Source: Streptomyces drozdowiczii (GTDB lineage Bacteria > Actinomycetota > Actinomycetes > Streptomycetales > Streptomycetaceae). From it: a DNA stretch of 64,000 nt. This document shows positions 14,664 to 22,579 of the stretch, piece by piece (the first letter of the stretch is position 1; each line of letters opens with the position of its first letter). Under the pieces are notes generated by a model. That model was not told the DNA's origin and searched no databases. It saw only the letters and a list, made by a program, of their open reading frames with translations. The position numbers and the translations under genes were made by a program. The DNA lies in contig NZ_CP098740.1 of assembly GCF_026167665.1 (NCBI RefSeq), positions 3,658,001 through 3,722,000 of the forward strand, given 5' to 3'.

Positions 14664-14988
14664 CTGCTCAGGCCGCGGCCCGCGCTTCCCGCCGGGCGCC
14701 CGGTATCGGACGGCCACCGCGCCGAGGATGTCGCGCAGCCGGATCCGGTCCGAGTAGCCGGGTCCGTTCCCGGGCAGTCCCGGTCGGCGGCACCGACATC
14801 CCGGACCAGCCGACGCCGGCGTCCGCCGAAGGCGTGGCGTGCGGGGCCGACAGGACCGGGTAACGTCCTCGGCACGTTCTTCCAGGCGCCGACTCACGGC
14901 TGAGAGCGTGACGGGCCCCGCCGACGTCCTGCGTCACAGCCCCCGTCCCCACCGTGGATCCTTGGATCCCTTCACACCGGGAGAACCC
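14664..14988. other. Intergenic stretch, nothing recognised
   Basis: About 325 bases between the terminator and the DUF6243 gene. Open frames here are Arg/Pro-rich shadows. No repeat or hairpin stands out. Confidence 0.3.
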
Positions 14989-15201
14989 GTGACCGACAGC
15001 AAGAACATCAACAACCCCGTGGGCCAGGGCGGCGGCCAGCGCAAGAAGCTGTCCCGGGCCGAACGGCAGAACAACGGCCCGCACCGCAACCTCGACCGTC
15101 AGGGTGCCGCCGACCGCAAGGCGGAGCTGGTACGCAAGATGCGCGAGAAGACTCGCGCGGCCGGGAGCACGGGGCAGACGGACGACGAAGCCCGGGGCTG
15201 A
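14989..15201 (+). CDS. DUF6243-like small basic protein
   Basis: 70-residue, strongly charged and probably disordered protein (NPVGQGGGQRKKLSRAERQN, then LVRKMREKTRAAG), of a type I recognise as widespread in Streptomyces and uncharacterised. Start GTG 14989 with GGGAG about 6 bases upstream. It converges with the VOC gene over a shared hairpin. Confidence 0.75.
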   Translation: MTDSKNINNPVGQGGGQRKKLSRAERQNNGPHRNLDRQGAADRKAELVRKMREKTRAAGSTGQTDDEARG

Positions 15202-15233
15202 AGCACCGCGCGGGCCGGGTCACAGGCACCGCC

Positions 15234-15267
15234 CGAGGACCGCGCTCCGCACGGAGTGCGGTCCTCG
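15234..15267. terminator. Bidirectional hairpin between convergent genes
   Basis: 16-bp stem (15234-15249 with 15252-15267), one G-T mismatch, tight loop. It serves the DUF6243 gene (+) and the VOC gene (-). Confidence 0.75.
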
Positions 15268-15277
15268 GCGCGTGCGG

Positions 15278-15667
15278 TTACGAGGCCCAGCCGCCGTACG
15301 GCACGGTGATGAGCTCCATGGCGTGGCCCGAAGGGTCCATGAAGTACACGCCGCGACCACCGTCGTTGTGATTGATCGCGCCCGGCTGCTTTCGCTGCGG
15401 GTCGGCGTAGTGCTCGATGCCGCGCTGTCCGATCTGCGCGTACGCCGCGTCGAACTCCTCCTCGGAGACCAAGAAGGCGTAGTGCTGCGGCGTGATGCTG
15501 TCCACCGGAACGGTGGCGAAATCCAGCGTGACGCCGTTGGCGAGACCGACCGCGATGAACGGGCCCCACTCGGCGGTGATCTCGAGGCTGAGCAGATTCG
15601 CGAAGAACTCTGCGGATTCCCGGTTGTTCCGGGCGTGGACGATCGTGTGATTCAACTCGACTGACAA
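15278..15667 (-). CDS. VOC-family (glyoxalase/bleomycin-resistance fold) protein
   Basis: 129-residue vicinal-oxygen-chelate protein with two beta-alpha-beta-beta-beta modules: LNHTIVHARNNRESAEFFAN at the start and GRGVYFMDPSGHAMELITVP at the end, holding the usual His and Glu metal positions. It could be a dioxygenase, isomerase or drug-binding protein; the substrate cannot be read. TTG 15667 is chosen because GGAGG lies exactly 6 bases upstream and no ATG/GTG fits. Confidence 0.85.
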   Translation of the reverse strand: MSVELNHTIVHARNNRESAEFFANLLSLEITAEWGPFIAVGLANGVTLDFATVPVDSITPQHYAFLVSEEEFDAAYAQIGQRGIEHYADPQRKQPGAINHNDGGRGVYFMDPSGHAMELITVPYGGWAS

Positions 15668-15861
15668 GGAATGCCTCCAAAGGCATGTCCCGACACCTCC
15701 ATGCCTCACCCAGCCGGTGACCGACACGCGATGCTGCCGTAGACCATATCCGTAACTACCCAATGGATCGAGGAAGTTACTGTGAACCGCACCTGGACGC
15801 CGCAACACGCCACCGCCGTCACCGCCGCCCCGACACGGGCCCCGCGCCTGGCGCCCACGCC

Positions 15862-17885: not shown

Positions 17886-18221
17886 GTGCTGACTGTTGCC
17901 TCCGACATCGAAGTGCTGGCCAGGTTCGGCCGCGCCCTCGCCGATCCGATCCGCTGCCGCATCCTGCTCGCCCTCCGGGAGTCTCCGGCCTACCCGGCCG
18001 ACCTCGCCGATGCGATCGGCGTCTCCCGTACCCGGCTGTCGAACCACCTCGCGTGCCTGCGCGACTGCGGCCTGGTCGTCGCCATCCCCGACGGCCGCCG
18101 CACCCGCTACGAGCTCGCCGACGAACGGCTCGGCCACGCCCTGGACGACCTGCGCACCGCCGTCGTGGCCGTCGAGACCGACCGCACCTGCCCGGATGCC
18201 GACGAGAAGAGTTGCTGCTGA
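17886..18221 (+). CDS. ArsR/SmtB-family metalloregulator
   Basis: 111-residue winged-helix repressor: FGRALADPIRCRILLALRES, recognition helix VSRTRLSNHLACLRDCGLVV, wing PDGRRTRYEL. Cys residues in RCRILL, the ACLRDCG helix and the C-terminal DEKSCC are candidate soft-metal ligands, as in CmtR/CadC-like sensors (Cd, Pb, Zn) rather than proven. GTG start. Its stop is 2 bases before the ATG of the transporter, so they form one operon with the regulator first. Confidence 0.88.
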   Translation: MLTVASDIEVLARFGRALADPIRCRILLALRESPAYPADLADAIGVSRTRLSNHLACLRDCGLVVAIPDGRRTRYELADERLGHALDDLRTAVVAVETDRTCPDADEKSCC

Positions 18222-18223
18222 TC

Positions 18224-18951
18224 ATGACCGCCGAGATATCGATATCCCTCGGTCCCTCCCCGGCCCGCCGCGACGCGCTCACCCGCCGGATACGGCTGCT
18301 GGTCGCGGCGACGATCACCTACAACGTCATCGAGGCGGTCGTCGCCCTCACGGCCGGCAGCCTCGCCTCCTCCACCGCCCTGATCGGCTTCGGCCTCGAC
18401 TCGATCATCGAGGTCTCCTCCGCCGCTGCGGTCGCCTGGAGTTCTCCGCCCGCGACCACGCCGTCCGCGAAGCGCGGGAGCAGCGCACCCTGCGCATCAT
18501 CGCCGTCTCCTTCTTCGCGCTCGCCGCGTACGTAGCCGTCGACGCCGTCCGCGCCCTGACCGGCACCGGCGAAGCCGAACGCTCCATCCTCGGCATCGTG
18601 ATCGCGGCCCTCTCCCTCGCGATCATGCCGTTCCTCTCCGCCGCCCAGCGCCGCGCCGGCCGCGAACTCGGCTCCGCCTCCGCCGTCGCCGATTCCAAGC
18701 AGACCCTCCTGTGCACCTACCTTTCAGGCGTCCTCCTGGTCGGCCTGGTCCTCAACGCCACCCTCGGCTGGTCCTGGGCCGACCCCATCGCCGCCCTCGC
18801 CATCGCCGCCATCGCCGTCAAGGAAGGCCGCGACGCCTGGCAGGGCAAGGGCTGCTGCGCGCCCACCGCCCACGGGCACACCCCGGACCCCGCGGTGGCG
18901 GCCGAGGCGGACGCGTGCGGCTGCAAGCCGGGATGCACCTGCTGTTCGTGA
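18224..18951 (+). pseudogene. Cation diffusion facilitator (CDF) transporter, frameshifted
   Basis: Metal cation/proton antiporter of the CDF family in two frames. The first part has the conserved membrane start TYNVIEAVVALTAGSLASST and the metal-site helix GFGLDSIIEVSSAAAVAW. After 18439 the other frame continues with SARDHAVREAREQRTLRIIA and four more membrane segments. Restoring one G at GCCTGGAGTTC gives AVAWEFSARDH. Total length would be about 243 residues. The C-terminal tail CGCKPGCTCC is a soft-metal-binding cluster. Co-operonic with arsR. It may be functional if the missing base is a sequencing artefact. Confidence 0.82.
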
Positions 18952-19030
18952 ACATCTCGTTGCCCGCCCCCGCCCATGTGGCCCGGTCCATCGATACTGA
19001 CCGGGCCATCGAGGGCGGACGGGGGCGGCG

Positions 19031-19813
19031 GTGGACTGGACGATCTGGGCAGGGCTCGCGGCCGGTCTGCTGATCTCGGTGGTGACCGCACCGGTCGGTG
19101 TGTCCGGCGCGGTCTTCCTCCTCCCGGTCCAGCTCAGCCTTCTCGGAGTGCCCAGCCCCGCCGTCACGCCGACGAACCTGCTCTTCAACGTAGTGGCCGG
19201 GCCCGGCGCACTCTGGCGCTACCGCCGCGACGGCGCCCTCCGCGACGGCCTGGCCCGGCGCCTCGTCCTGTGGACGCTGCCCGGTGTCGTCGCCGGCGCC
19301 GCCGTCCGCGTCTTCGCCCTCCCCGGCCCGGGCGTCTTCCGGCTGCTGGTCGCCGCTCTCCTTCTGCCACTGGGCACATGGCTGTGCCTGCGCACACTGC
19401 ACCCGGTTCGGCAGCGTCCCGACGCGGCCGAACCGTCGGCCCCCGCCCTCGCGGCCCTCGCCCTGATGGTCGGAACGGTGGGCGGGATCTACGGGATCGG
19501 CGGCGGTTCCCTGCTCGGCCCCGTCCTCGCCGCGCGCGGCATGCCGATGACCCGTATCGCACCGGCCACGCTCGCCACGACCTTCACCACGTCCATCGCC
19601 GGGGCCGCCGCGTACGCCGTGCTGGCCCTGGCAAGCCCGGGCCCCGTGGCACCCCACTGGTGGCTGGGCCTGGCCTGCGGCCTCGGCGGCCTGATCGGCG
19701 GCTATCTCGGCGCCCGGCTTCAACCCCGCCTGCCCGAAACCCTGCTCCGCCTCCTGCTCGGCACCCTAGCCGCCACCCTCGGCACGCTCTACGCCGCCCA
19801 GGCAGTGGCCTGA
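19031..19813 (+). CDS. TauE/SafE-family anion (sulfite-type) exporter
   Basis: 260 residues with about 8 membrane helices in two homologous halves, each with the family repeat: VVTAPVGVSGAVFLLPVQLS with TNLLFNV in the first, and VGGIYGIGGGSLLGPVL with TFTTSIAG in the second. Members move sulfite, sulfonates or related organic anions. GTG start. It follows the arsR-CDF operon by 79 bases; with the TusA-like and methyltransferase genes it suggests a combined metal/sulfur stress module. Confidence 0.85.
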   Translation: MDWTIWAGLAAGLLISVVTAPVGVSGAVFLLPVQLSLLGVPSPAVTPTNLLFNVVAGPGALWRYRRDGALRDGLARRLVLWTLPGVVAGAAVRVFALPGPGVFRLLVAALLLPLGTWLCLRTLHPVRQRPDAAEPSAPALAALALMVGTVGGIYGIGGGSLLGPVLAARGMPMTRIAPATLATTFTTSIAGAAAYAVLALASPGPVAPHWWLGLACGLGGLIGGYLGARLQPRLPETLLRLLLGTLAATLGTLYAAQAVA

Positions 19814-19905
19814 GGGATGCGGCGGTACGGTCTACGAGAGCCGCTTCTGGCGCCCCATCAGGACGCGCATAACACACGCATTCCGAAAGGCCCAGACAAC
19901 AAAGA

Positions 19906-19932
19906 AGGCCCCGGTCACTGACCAGGGCCTTC
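19906..19932. terminator. Hairpin beside tRNA copy
   Basis: AAGGCCC...GGGCCTT stem around a CTG loop. It stands in the same position relative to the tRNA copy as the hairpin at 22472-22500 does to the intact tRNA, so it is probably the original tRNA terminator displaced by insertion. Confidence 0.65.
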
Positions 19933-19939
19933 ATCAAAG

Positions 19940-19981
19940 AGCGGGTGACGAGCATCGAACTCGCGCTCTGGGCTTGGGAAT
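19940..19981 (-). repeat. att-like duplicate of tRNA-Gly 3' half
   Basis: 42 bases identical to 22508-22549 except two positions (19954 and 19972), in direct orientation. It spans the 3' end, T arm, variable region and anticodon loop of tRNA-Gly(CCC), then diverges abruptly. That is the usual extent of a tyrosine-integrase core in a tRNA gene. The 2.57 kb between the copies is the candidate inserted element. Confidence 0.8.
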
Positions 19982-20140
19982 CAACGGTTCCTAGGTGGTT
20001 GCAGGGGGCCCTGACCTGCGGTTTCGGATTGGCCAGGTGGGCGGCTCCCGCTCTCTGGGAGCCGTATCTGACCGCTGTTGTCCGCTCCGCTGGGCACGAG
20101 AGCCGACAGTGCGCCGCGTGATCCGGGTGGGCCCGACTGG

Positions 20141-20542
20141 TCAGAGAGGGATGATGCGAACCTGGCTGCCGCAGAGCTTGGCCATGTCGTCGCTGTCGGA
20201 GGTCAGCAGAGCGACGGGTTTCGGCTGGCGCAGGGCGACTTCGGCGACCGTGGCGTCGATGGCGTACTTGTGCCCGTGAAGTCCGGCACCTTTGAGAAGC
20301 TCAGCCGCCGCCTTCGCCGCCTGTTCGGTGACCGGCTCCACCTTTACGCGGGACAGAGCCCAGTTCAGGCGCGGCATATTGGTGCGGGAGTGGCTGACTT
20401 CAACGATGGTGTTGGCCCCGATAACCAGGTCGGCTCCCATGTCATGGAAGACCTGAAGCATCGCAAGTAGCTTGCGATCCTGCGCGATCCAGGCGGAGAG
20501 CCCTTCCGAGTCCAGGATGACGGTCTCGATGCGCTCGCTCAC
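20141..20542 (-). CDS. PIN-domain toxin (VapC-like)
   Basis: 133-residue PIN ribonuclease toxin. Acidic active-site set: D11 (VILDSEGL), E48 (NTIVEVSH), D96 (YAIDATVAEVAL) and D116/D118 (LLTSDSDDM), as expected for Mg-dependent RNA cleavage. GTG start overlaps the antitoxin stop (GTGA), the classic antitoxin-first coupling. The RNA target cannot be inferred. It lies inside the direct-repeat-bounded segment next to the Shedu gene and may stabilise it. Confidence 0.88.
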   Translation of the reverse strand: MSERIETVILDSEGLSAWIAQDRKLLAMLQVFHDMGADLVIGANTIVEVSHSRTNMPRLNWALSRVKVEPVTEQAAKAAAELLKGAGLHGHKYAIDATVAEVALRQPKPVALLTSDSDDMAKLCGSQVRIIPL

Positions 20543-20787
20543 GCGGCGTCCGCGTCCTGGGAGGAACCAGCGGAGTCGAAGATCTTTGCGCGGGCCTCAG
20601 CGAGCTCCTCGTTGCTGAAGGGGCCGTGATCTTCCTCGTGGCGGCGGAGGTCGCCGCCCAGGAGCTGGTGCCGAATCTGACGGGCCACGGCTTCCGCCAC
20701 GTAACCGGAGACGTTGTCCGTGAGCTTGCGGAGCTCCGCCACCTGGTCGCTAGGGAGGGTGACGGTGATGCGAGTCGTTGAGGACAT
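20539..20787 (-). CDS. Ribbon-helix-helix antitoxin
   Basis: 82 residues. N-terminal RHH DNA-binding part (RITVTLPSDQVAELRKLTDN, then VSGYVAEAVARQIRHQLL) and an acidic C-terminal tail that would wrap the PIN toxin. ATG start 8 bases from a perfect palindrome that is the likely operator; the spacing allows a very short leader. It forms a two-gene toxin-antitoxin operon with the PIN gene. Confidence 0.87.
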   Translation of the reverse strand: MSSTTRITVTLPSDQVAELRKLTDNVSGYVAEAVARQIRHQLLGGDLRRHEEDHGPFSNEELAEARAKIFDSAGSSQDADAA

Positions 20788-20794
20788 GAGCCAA

Positions 20795-20810
20795 GCATAC
20801 TGGAGTATGC
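20795..20810. promoter_or_regulatory. Operator of the toxin-antitoxin operon
   Basis: Perfect inverted repeat GCATACT-GG-AGTATGC immediately upstream of the antitoxin start. TATGCT within it on the coding strand can serve as a -10, so binding by the RHH protein would block transcription. Confidence 0.7.
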
Positions 20811-20909
20811 ACGTACCTGCCTACCGCTCCGCTGTCTGCTTGAGCCGGTCCGGCCGGCCGCGATCTACTGAACCCGGTCGTTGTCAGTGCCTCCTTCTAA
20901 GGTCACCGC

Positions 20910-22127
20910 ATGACGACATTCCGATCTAGTTCCACGCTCCGGGAGATGGTCAGCGGGGCTCGGGAGCTCACTAAGCACCCGAGCGTGCTGGAGCGCATCG
21001 ATGCAGTACTGCGCGTCATGGGCCCTGCCTTCGGCAGGACCGGGTACGGCAAAGGCAGGCCCCTGGTGGACACCTTGGAAGATGTCGCCCAAGAATCGCT
21101 CCTAGTCGGAGACTTTGCTCTTGCGCAGCGGTTCCAGCGCTTTGCCGCCTATGCCGGTGGTGAGCTGTTCCTCGAAATTCTGGAGAACTATTACGACGAG
21201 GACGCTCGGCGTAGTAGCGAGGAGGGCATGCGGAGGCTGGTGGCCATGGGCGCCGATCGAGCCGTGGCCGTTCTGGATGCTCTCTCCGAGAGCGACCCGG
21301 AGGCGACCGTAGCCGATGTGCGGGACCTCTTTCACGGTATAGCCCTGTCCGTGGACCACTTGGGCCTCGGTACAGAGGAGGGTGGGATCCGGCTTCCCAC
21401 TCGAGAAAGGAGGAGACTCCAGCAGTACGGGCACATGGAGCTTGTCCTGAGGGACCTGCCGCGACCGGCCTCGGCCGAGGCGGCGCGGATGGTGGGCGAT
21501 TTCCTCGCGGATGCCGACGCGGGGTTGCTGGCTCAGTTGCTGGAGTTGAAGGCCCGGCGAGCGGGTCTCGACGCTCTGCGTGCTGTGGTGGAGGACGGGA
21601 CGAGCTCGGAGAGTGCCCTCCACGCCCGTCTGAAGAATCAGGAGTGGATTTTCGGCGGTGCCTACGTGGCAGAGCTGGCACGCCGGCAGTACACCGCAGA
21701 CACGATTCTGGATATCCCGCTTCTGCGGGGTGACGGATCCCTTCATGTGGTGGAACTCAAGCGTGCCAACATCAAGGATCTGGTGATCCGGCGCAGTGGC
21801 CACCTCATGTTGGGCGCCCCGGCCCACCACGCGGTGTCGCAGGCCCAAAACTACCTCCGCACCATGGATGAGAACCGCGAGGCCATCCTCGCGGACCACG
21901 GAGTCGATACCCGTAGGGCCTCGGCAACGGTTGTGATCGGGCATCCGCGATTCGTCAGTGGTGGCATTACCCCCAAGGAGATCGCGGAGACACTCCGCAC
22001 CTACAACACACACGCGGCACGCATTGAAGTGATCACGTACGAGACCCTGCTGGAGTCAGCAGCCCGGATGCTGGCCCTCGCGTCGGCGCAGCAGGATCCT
22101 GACCAGGCCGAGGAGCCCACGGCATGA
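20910..22127 (+). CDS. Shedu-type anti-phage nuclease (DUF4263 C-terminal domain)
   Basis: 405 residues. The C-terminal region (about 230-385) matches the Shedu/DUF4263 PD-(D/E)xK-like nuclease: E234 and LHARLKNQEWIFGGAY, then D268 (DTILDIPLLRGDG), E282 and K284 (HVVELKR), and the downstream H...QAQNYLRTMDENREAIL helix. The N-terminal 220 residues are a separate helical domain that I do not recognise, consistent with the variable sensor domains of Shedu proteins. Members defend against phage by DNA nicking. ATG start with weak AAGG upstream. ATGA overlap couples it to the next small gene. Divergent from the toxin-antitoxin operon. Confidence 0.85.
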   Translation: MTTFRSSSTLREMVSGARELTKHPSVLERIDAVLRVMGPAFGRTGYGKGRPLVDTLEDVAQESLLVGDFALAQRFQRFAAYAGGELFLEILENYYDEDARRSSEEGMRRLVAMGADRAVAVLDALSESDPEATVADVRDLFHGIALSVDHLGLGTEEGGIRLPTRERRRLQQYGHMELVLRDLPRPASAEAARMVGDFLADADAGLLAQLLELKARRAGLDALRAVVEDGTSSESALHARLKNQEWIFGGAYVAELARRQYTADTILDIPLLRGDGSLHVVELKRANIKDLVIRRSGHLMLGAPAHHAVSQAQNYLRTMDENREAILADHGVDTRRASATVVIGHPRFVSGGITPKEIAETLRTYNTHAARIEVITYETLLESAARMLALASAQQDPDQAEEPTA

Positions 22128-22450
22128 CCGAAGACAACCAGCCTGCGATCGAGCGGCTGTTGGCCCGCTTGTGCGGGGGTGCGATTACAGGAAAGGACTA
22201 CGTCGGCTACTTCCTCAACGAGCACGGAGAGGAACTCGTCTTCGCCCAGCGCCGGGGAGAGAAGACCGCCCGGTTCTGGCACAGCGACGCCGACTGGCAG
22301 ATGTTCCGCGTCGGCGACCACTCAGTACGGGTCGGCAGCGTGATGGACGGAGTGATCACCGTCGGCGACTTGATCATAAATCGCCATGAGGCGACGTGGC
22401 TGTCCTCGTGCCTTGCTGCCTCCCGCCACCTACGCCAGAAGCACAGCTGA
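22124..22450 (+). CDS. Small protein coupled to the Shedu gene, unknown
   Basis: Not recognised. 108 residues, overlapping the Shedu stop by ATGA. Sequence suggests a small beta-rich soluble domain (YVGYFLNEHGEELVFAQRRG, then ARFWHSDADWQMFRVGD, GVITVGDLIINRHEATWLS) with conserved-looking Trp residues. As Shedu is usually described as a single-gene system, a coupled partner is unusual: candidate regulator, inhibitor or accessory subunit. The gene ends just before the tRNA terminator at the island's right edge. Confidence 0.7.
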   Translation: MTEDNQPAIERLLARLCGGAITGKDYVGYFLNEHGEELVFAQRRGEKTARFWHSDADWQMFRVGDHSVRVGSVMDGVITVGDLIINRHEATWLSSCLAASRHLRQKHS

Positions 22451-22471
22451 CACGCGGCTCGGGTAACAACG

Positions 22472-22500
22472 AAGCTCCCAGGTCTCTGACCTGGGAGCTT
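22472..22500 (-). terminator. Terminator of tRNA-Gly
   Basis: Perfect 13-bp stem (22472-22484 with 22488-22500) with TCT loop, followed on the minus strand by the 3' end of the Shedu-partner gene. It can terminate both the tRNA (-) and the defence genes (+). Confidence 0.8.
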
Positions 22501-22508
22501 GTTTCAAG

Positions 22509-22579
22509 AGCGGGTGACGAGAATCGAACTCGCGCTCTGAGCTTGGGAAGCTCATGTTCTACCATTAAACTACACCCGC
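22509..22579 (-). tRNA. tRNA-Gly (anticodon CCC)
   Basis: Cloverleaf read on the minus strand: acceptor GCGGGTG (22573-22579) pairs with CACCCGC (22510-22516); anticodon stem TGAGC/GCTCA with loop TTCCCAA gives CCC (22545-22547); T loop TTCGATT. CCA is not encoded. Its 3' half is duplicated at 19940-19981, marking it as an integration site. Confidence 0.93.

Follow-up and report, generated by a model that had tools for sequence, protein, structure and literature searches.

Actinomycete integrative and conjugative elements (AICEs) of the pSAM2 type target the 3′ ends of tRNA genes, and published accounts of AICE accretion and decay in Streptomyces (PMC9513070) and of tandem AICEs (PMC3218068) describe several elements stacked at one tRNA gene, tRNA-Arg in those papers. 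Cis-mobilizable elements (CIMEs), as defined in PMC5704250, have att sites at both ends, lie beside functional elements and have lost their genes for integration and transfer. The Dehalococcoides ssrA islands described in PMC3146451 form rows downstream of one RNA gene, with 3′-end direct repeats between them and some without an integration module, and integrons, in the account of PMC11389934, collect small cassettes at one entry site in an ordered row, including integrase-less rows (clusters of attC sites lacking integron integrases, CALINs) that might be served by the integrase of a different element. Defence and toxin-antitoxin genes cluster even where no mobility gene accompanies them, which raises the question of how such clusters arise. 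Here, we analyse an interval at 19939-22549 in a 64,000-nt stretch of Streptomyces drozdowiczii (NZ_CP098740.1, positions 3,658,001 to 3,722,000; the window), part of a 7.39-Mb genome on a single contig, with all coordinates given as window positions. Lying between an intact tRNA-Gly(CCC) gene and a displaced copy of its 3′ half, the interval is probably a composite of two integrase-free cassettes, members of a genus-wide family inserting at tRNA-Gly(CCC) and installed in trans by AICE integrases; its boundaries are sharply defined, and there is a likely candidate for the helper.

The single tRNA gene that ARAGORN reports in the window is tRNA-Gly(ccc), at 22508-22579 on the minus strand, the apparent target. 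The displaced half, a core repeat of 42 nt on the same strand (19939-19980), equals tRNA nucleotides 31-72 with 2 mismatches and begins at the anticodon loop, and the starts of the two cores are 2,569 nt apart. In a scan of the whole window with a matrix built from 61 such fragments, the window's own included, the displaced copy scores 87 bits and the tRNA 71; because the next best site reaches only -38, the displaced copy is not a chance match. A terminator-like minus-strand hairpin stands behind each, at 19904-19932 for the displaced half (-25.9 kcal/mol) and at 22468-22503 for the intact tRNA (-26.2 kcal/mol). None of 200 shuffles was as good as either, and a simple terminator scan lists the hairpin behind the displaced copy only, not the one behind the intact tRNA. 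No integrase was found among the open reading frames (ORFs) of the interval. A preliminary description of this DNA had proposed the direct near-identical repeat, a terminator for each tRNA segment, the absence of an integrase and a content of PIN/ribbon-helix-helix (RHH) genes, a Shedu nuclease and a coupled small gene, and all four proposals stand, the last through Pfam and PADLOC matches and the ORFs themselves. On our reading, the core at 22508-22549 of the intact tRNA would be a 3′ half supplied by the element together with the hairpin at 22468-22503, and 22550-22579 would be the chromosomal 5′ half.

The first of the two cassettes encodes a predicted VapC-like PIN-domain toxin (20141-20542, minus strand; PF01850, 22.9 bits, E 1.4e-4, 0.7 bits short of the cut-off of 23.6) and a predicted CcdA-like RHH antitoxin (20539-20787, minus strand; PF07362, 22.7 bits, cut-off 22.4). 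Their genes overlap by 4 nt, and a PIN gene with a small RHH gene in one operon, as predicted from the genes, is the arrangement of a PIN/RHH (VapBC-type) toxin-antitoxin system. The second encodes SduA (20910-22127, plus strand), whose DUF4263 nuclease domain identifies a Shedu system: it matches the SduA models well, both PF14082 (SduA_C; 54.8 bits, cut-off 27), as the preliminary description's DUF4263 assignment led one to expect, and PADLOC PDLC00401 (479 bits, E 3.8e-144). No solved structure is related to SduA by sequence at E ≤ 1. The SduA gene is overlapped by 4 nt by a gene for a conserved 108-aa protein (22124-22450, plus strand), which matches no family in Pfam, PADLOC or NCBIfam. 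Shedu is a one-gene system, and this cassette differs in that a homologue of the 108-aa protein accompanies SduA in 35 of 39 loci. The protein has 167 relatives, the best 120 of them in Streptomyces, Kitasatospora, Embleya, Actinomadura and others, and is a candidate second Shedu component.

To place the interval among relatives, DNA left of the tRNA was fetched from 34 genomes and analysed for 33, in most cases 20 kb beside the tRNA; these regions were chosen as nearest by their match to the stretch from the tRNA to dcd, with some holders of a nearby SduA added, and form a non-random sample. End features were compared across 64 tRNA halves, the window's own among them. In the window the cassette left arm (19981-20020, minus strand) reads GCAGGTCAG ... 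ACCGTTGA immediately before the core; of the 64 fragments, 44 show GGTCA 33-38 nt ahead of the core, an arrangement seen at 1.4% of random sites, 54 have a TGA that abuts the core (1% of random sites) and a hairpin below -15 kcal/mol lies behind 62 of 64 halves, compared with 30% of shuffles. This arm lies outside the core and is common to cassettes of differing cargo. At the other end, the match between the window and SduA cassettes of other arrays breaks off precisely where the core begins, at 22549, at two loci (L078, which is the same locus as L148, and L149) and at 22547, 2 nt from the core edge, at a third (L150). Aligned to the intact-tRNA terminator of the nearest relative, genome G116, which it resembles, the window's displaced terminator scores 31 and the window's own tRNA terminator 18, as insertion with displacement predicts. 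A core that starts at the 7-nt anticodon loop would also suit the overlap of a tyrosine recombinase. This anatomy lends good support to insertion through an AICE-type integrase, with the crossover placed in the anticodon loop, in line with the earlier proposal that the element replaced the tRNA 3′ half there.

Two further properties of the cores deserve mention. Many terminator hairpins behind them contain AGGTCAG, the motif of the left arm, and may double as integrase arm sites. In addition, the 64 cores agree with whichever tRNA variant their host carries, with 0.09 mismatches at five host-variable positions compared with 1.47 when hosts are shuffled, which can be read either as a compatibility filter or as gene conversion.

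Arrays of such cassettes are widespread. A pattern of core plus arm, which by including the arm leaves out the intact tRNA, has at least one match in 135 of 199 genomes of the genus, and its reversed control has none in the same 199. The preliminary description had suggested a search for other cassettes between such copies. Further tRNA halves are present in 27 of the 33 regions and absent from the stretch read in the remaining six genomes (G116, G052, G149, G006, G094 and G187). G104 has the most matches, 11 spread over both strands; G166 follows with 10, all on a single strand and spanning ~48 kb up to the tRNA. We screened 58 core-to-core intervals, the window's own among them, for the int, xis, rep and tra genes of the AICE at locus L092. 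No homologue of any was detected in 44, which have a median length of 3.4 kb and in some cases measure 1.0-1.3 kb; 6 have full-length int with rep and are pSAM2-like AICEs, 1 has full-length int alone and 7 have pieces of int. All seven intervals with a full-length integrase adjoin the tRNA (7/25 proximal intervals vs 0/33 further out, Fisher P=0.0016). AICEs excepted, whole cassettes recur between genomes at 84-94% identity, in different order and with different neighbours, and two of nine non-AICE cassette pairs exceed the identity of the hosts' dcd genes (93.9 vs 86.0% and 94.4 vs 90.4%).

The cargo was profiled with 104 of the 122 cluster representatives of non-AICE proteins. Defence models matched, as named from 25 of 102 matched, include SduA, type I restriction-modification, BrxHI-type, mad2, mad5 and PDC-S27, and domain families, as named from 25 of 85 matched, include RHS-repeat, T7SS-signal, CdiA-type RNase and CdiI-immunity as well as dehydrogenases and other metabolic families. 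By these predictions cargo extends beyond defence; since gene calls in the arrays are heuristic (SduA in the window was given a wrong start, and a spurious ORF was called), the inventory of cargo is approximate. One 6.9-kb cassette with a 1518-1588-aa protein was observed in three genomes at 92-93% identity and in differing array positions (read towards the tRNA, L083 11790-18658, L084 5375-12216 and L086 10358-17226). Outside the genus, among the matches listed for 16 genomes belonging to its family or order, a tRNA-like AGC or TGC precedes the core, a sample too small for a conclusion.

Judged by its relatives, the interval is two joined cassettes, each of which also occurs alone between tRNA halves elsewhere. 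The PIN/RHH pair alone makes up a 1.0-kb cassette between two cores at L066 and L088; SduA with the small gene alone fills cassettes at L070, L073 and L075, and in Streptomyces catenulae (L152) this pair has a core on one side and the tRNA on the other. The joint falls at 20814-20833, matching the ends of the relatives' cassettes on either side: matches to the PIN cassette end at 20810-20813 in 11 regions, and SduA-only matches begin at 20834 or later. The matrix scan of the window detects no core-like site between the two cassettes, which were probably fused here by loss of the core between them. The same composite is present in Streptomyces sp. CB02366 (L147) at 87% over 3.2 kb, in a match that ends at 19863, just left of the distal terminator; its left flank has no match to the window's left flank, and its joint, with the sequences compared by eye, retains more of the SduA side. 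Thus, the earlier proposal of a single minimal defence cassette survives in part: the unit is integrase-free, but it consists of two joined cassettes and belongs to genus-wide arrays whose cargo extends beyond defence.

Among 39 named SduA loci, 22 show one or more cores in the DNA examined (the reversed control has 0 in 712 kb), and the spacing recurs, with the left core 266-276 nt before SduA in six loci and 368-371 nt before it in three, and a right core or the tRNA 388-391 nt behind SduA in five. Separately, a distant SduA, 47% identical, was noted between a degenerate core and the tRNA in G071 (L071:17450-18061) and appears from its sequence to be a second Shedu type in the same format.

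A candidate for the helper recombinase is found at this tRNA in other genomes. Relatives of the tyrosine integrase of G173 were detected at E ≤ 1e-60 in 86 of 199 genomes, and we picked by eye 37 in which integrase and tRNA lie near each other on one contig. The integrase is on the array side of the tRNA in all 37; it lies less than 400 nt from the tRNA in 27, of which 15 at 57-64 nt, and 1.5-21.6 kb away in the other 10. The array integrase matches Phage_integrase, Phage_int_SAM_3 and Phage_int_M, and its Pfam-annotated neighbours at L092 are an HTH_17 Xis-like protein, RepSA (501 bits), DUF2637, FtsK/SpoIIIE, GntR and an AAA_21 protein. With an integrase, Rep and FtsK-type Tra of its own between att sites, the L092 element, like others in the relatives, is by gene content a pSAM2-like AICE. 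The window's genome has no match to the array integrase at E ≤ 1e-60; its five Phage_integrase matches, all outside the interval, are only 26-35% identical to it over the better aligned pieces. Movement in trans is plausible, since other genomes have a fitting integrase at this tRNA and the window's genome does not.

Neither phages nor plasmids emerged as a source of this integrase. The 685 matching phage records are all below 60% identity, which led us to reject a phage origin, and among 60 matching plasmid records four reach 60-80%, the first listed being 64% identical over 72% of the query, with no near copy. In G166, a relative of the integrase (G166:C1:4367382-4368389) was observed ~22 kb from the tRNA and ~300 nt from an inner core, and has the appearance of an older AICE that subsequent insertions have displaced.

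Together, these data suggest how the arrays may be built. In a cassette, a core that corresponds to the tRNA 3′ half, starting at the anticodon loop, is followed by a terminator-like hairpin, cargo and, before the next core, a left arm of GCAGGTCAG, about 20 nt and CCGTTGA. The tyrosine integrase of pSAM2-like AICEs with the same target would join a circular cassette, through its core, to the tRNA by recombination in the 7-nt anticodon loop, the tRNA retaining its 5′ half and acquiring a new 3′ half and terminator while the old half and terminator are displaced; repeated insertion would yield an array with the newest unit beside the tRNA. Free movement of cassettes in trans is likely on the sequence evidence. 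We infer that the integrase acts on cassettes, that they pass through a circular form, in which order they arrived, that they are transferred when AICEs conjugate, and that they protect against phages.

Several points weigh against this model. Because the genes of one AICE were searched, some of the 44 intervals scored as free of AICE genes may hold another integrase or backbone, above all two of 16 kb. The other seven non-AICE cassette pairs and all six AICE pairs are less alike than the hosts' dcd genes, and for these recent transfer is therefore unsupported. An exact GGTCA at the expected place is wanting in 20 of the 64 fragments, and in the DNA examined for 17 of the 39 SduA loci no core was found, in some cases because the contig ends.

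Among other explanations, the cassettes might be decayed AICEs, that is, classic CIMEs left as cargo after loss of int, rep and tra and able to move only in cis with a newly arrived AICE. The int pieces in 7 of 58 intervals fit this view, full-length integrases are restricted to tRNA-proximal positions as if older AICEs decay, and both decay and accretion of AICEs have been described in Streptomyces (PMC9513070). We nevertheless consider it unlikely, given the 44 intervals without an int, xis, rep or tra homologue, some just 1.0-1.3 kb long, and given cassettes with the same boundaries beside different neighbours in different genomes, a pattern that would require movement after decay.

Less weight still can be given to homologous exchange between arrays, in which site-specific insertion lies far back and cassettes are reshuffled through the repeated tRNA halves and the conserved dcd side. 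The repeats and right flank do supply homology, the fit of cores to their own host's tRNA is as gene conversion would give, and the majority of recurrent cassettes do not exceed host dcd in identity; however, such exchange needs neither an arm common to different cargo nor match ends within 2 nt of the core edge, and we regard it as improbable. That the displaced half is a chance tRNA pseudogene beside ordinary chromosomal genes is barely credible. Because the left flank (ArsR, cation efflux and TauE genes) is unconserved at the site, the older gene order is unreadable, which leaves some room for such a view; against it, halves with a shared arm and hairpins recur across the genus and G116 has an intact tRNA with none of the interval's genes in the fetched stretch. 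A chance repeat or pseudogene is ruled out by the contrast between the genus scan and its reversed control.

The arrays are best read as a cassette-array variant of known AICE accretion and of CIMEs. As in AICE accretion, the target is a tRNA 3′ end, integrase, Xis-like, RepSA and FtsK-type Tra genes stand beside the tRNA in relatives, and elements are stacked; unlike AICEs, most sampled units contain cargo only, down to 1.0 kb, and the window's unit has no AICE gene, lacking the integrase, Rep and FtsK-type Tra of such an element. With att-like sites at both ends (cores 19939-19980 and 22508-22549) and no integration or transfer genes between them, the interval has the organization of a CIME. 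CIMEs are defined in PMC5704250 as having lost such genes, whereas in most of the present units the AICE genes searched have left no trace, and these units recur in different contexts. The Dehalococcoides islands, as described in PMC3146451, involve a serine recombinase, a 20-bp repeat and a tmRNA target; the present arrays involve a tyrosine integrase, a 42-nt repeat, tRNA-Gly and cargo of defence, toxin and other genes. The likeness to integrons and CALINs (PMC11389934) is one of working, with small cassettes, one entry site and an ordered row, and here the repeat consists of half a tRNA gene, which is not known to be an attC site, and the proposed recombinase is that of an AICE. In the open-access literature searched, judged mostly from listings, we recognised no paper describing Streptomyces tRNA-Gly(CCC) cassette arrays.

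A wider interpretation, which we offer tentatively, is that Streptomyces practises integron-like gene capture: tRNA-Gly(CCC) would serve as entry site and AICE integrases as a shared recombinase, with arm-core-terminator cassettes captured, stacked by arrival, shuffled and fused into defence islands genus-wide. If the proposed mechanism holds, integrase-free cassettes would explain how defence islands are built and joined, and the arm-core-terminator signature would provide a means of searching a very large genus for unknown defence genes.

Finally, the surroundings of the site were compared. No relative nearer than G116, which is 96% identical in the tRNA-dcd stretch, was found in a search of 392 genomes. 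The genus-scan pattern finds no core anywhere in the G116 genome, and the 8.9 kb fetched from it (L058) lack both SduA and PIN, so the preliminary description's worry that all relatives might share the same genes and both tRNA segments does not apply. Of the empty tRNA-Gly(CCC) sites that it proposed to look for, no clean one with both flanks conserved was found among the relatives examined; G116 shares window 14811-15778 further left, and the DNA between differs. The genes that flank the element on its left (17886-19813; ArsR, cation efflux and TauE) are at this tRNA in none of the fetched regions, and in G015 the ArsR/efflux pair lies ~12 kb from the tRNA. From these comparisons, the left side of the site is very variable.

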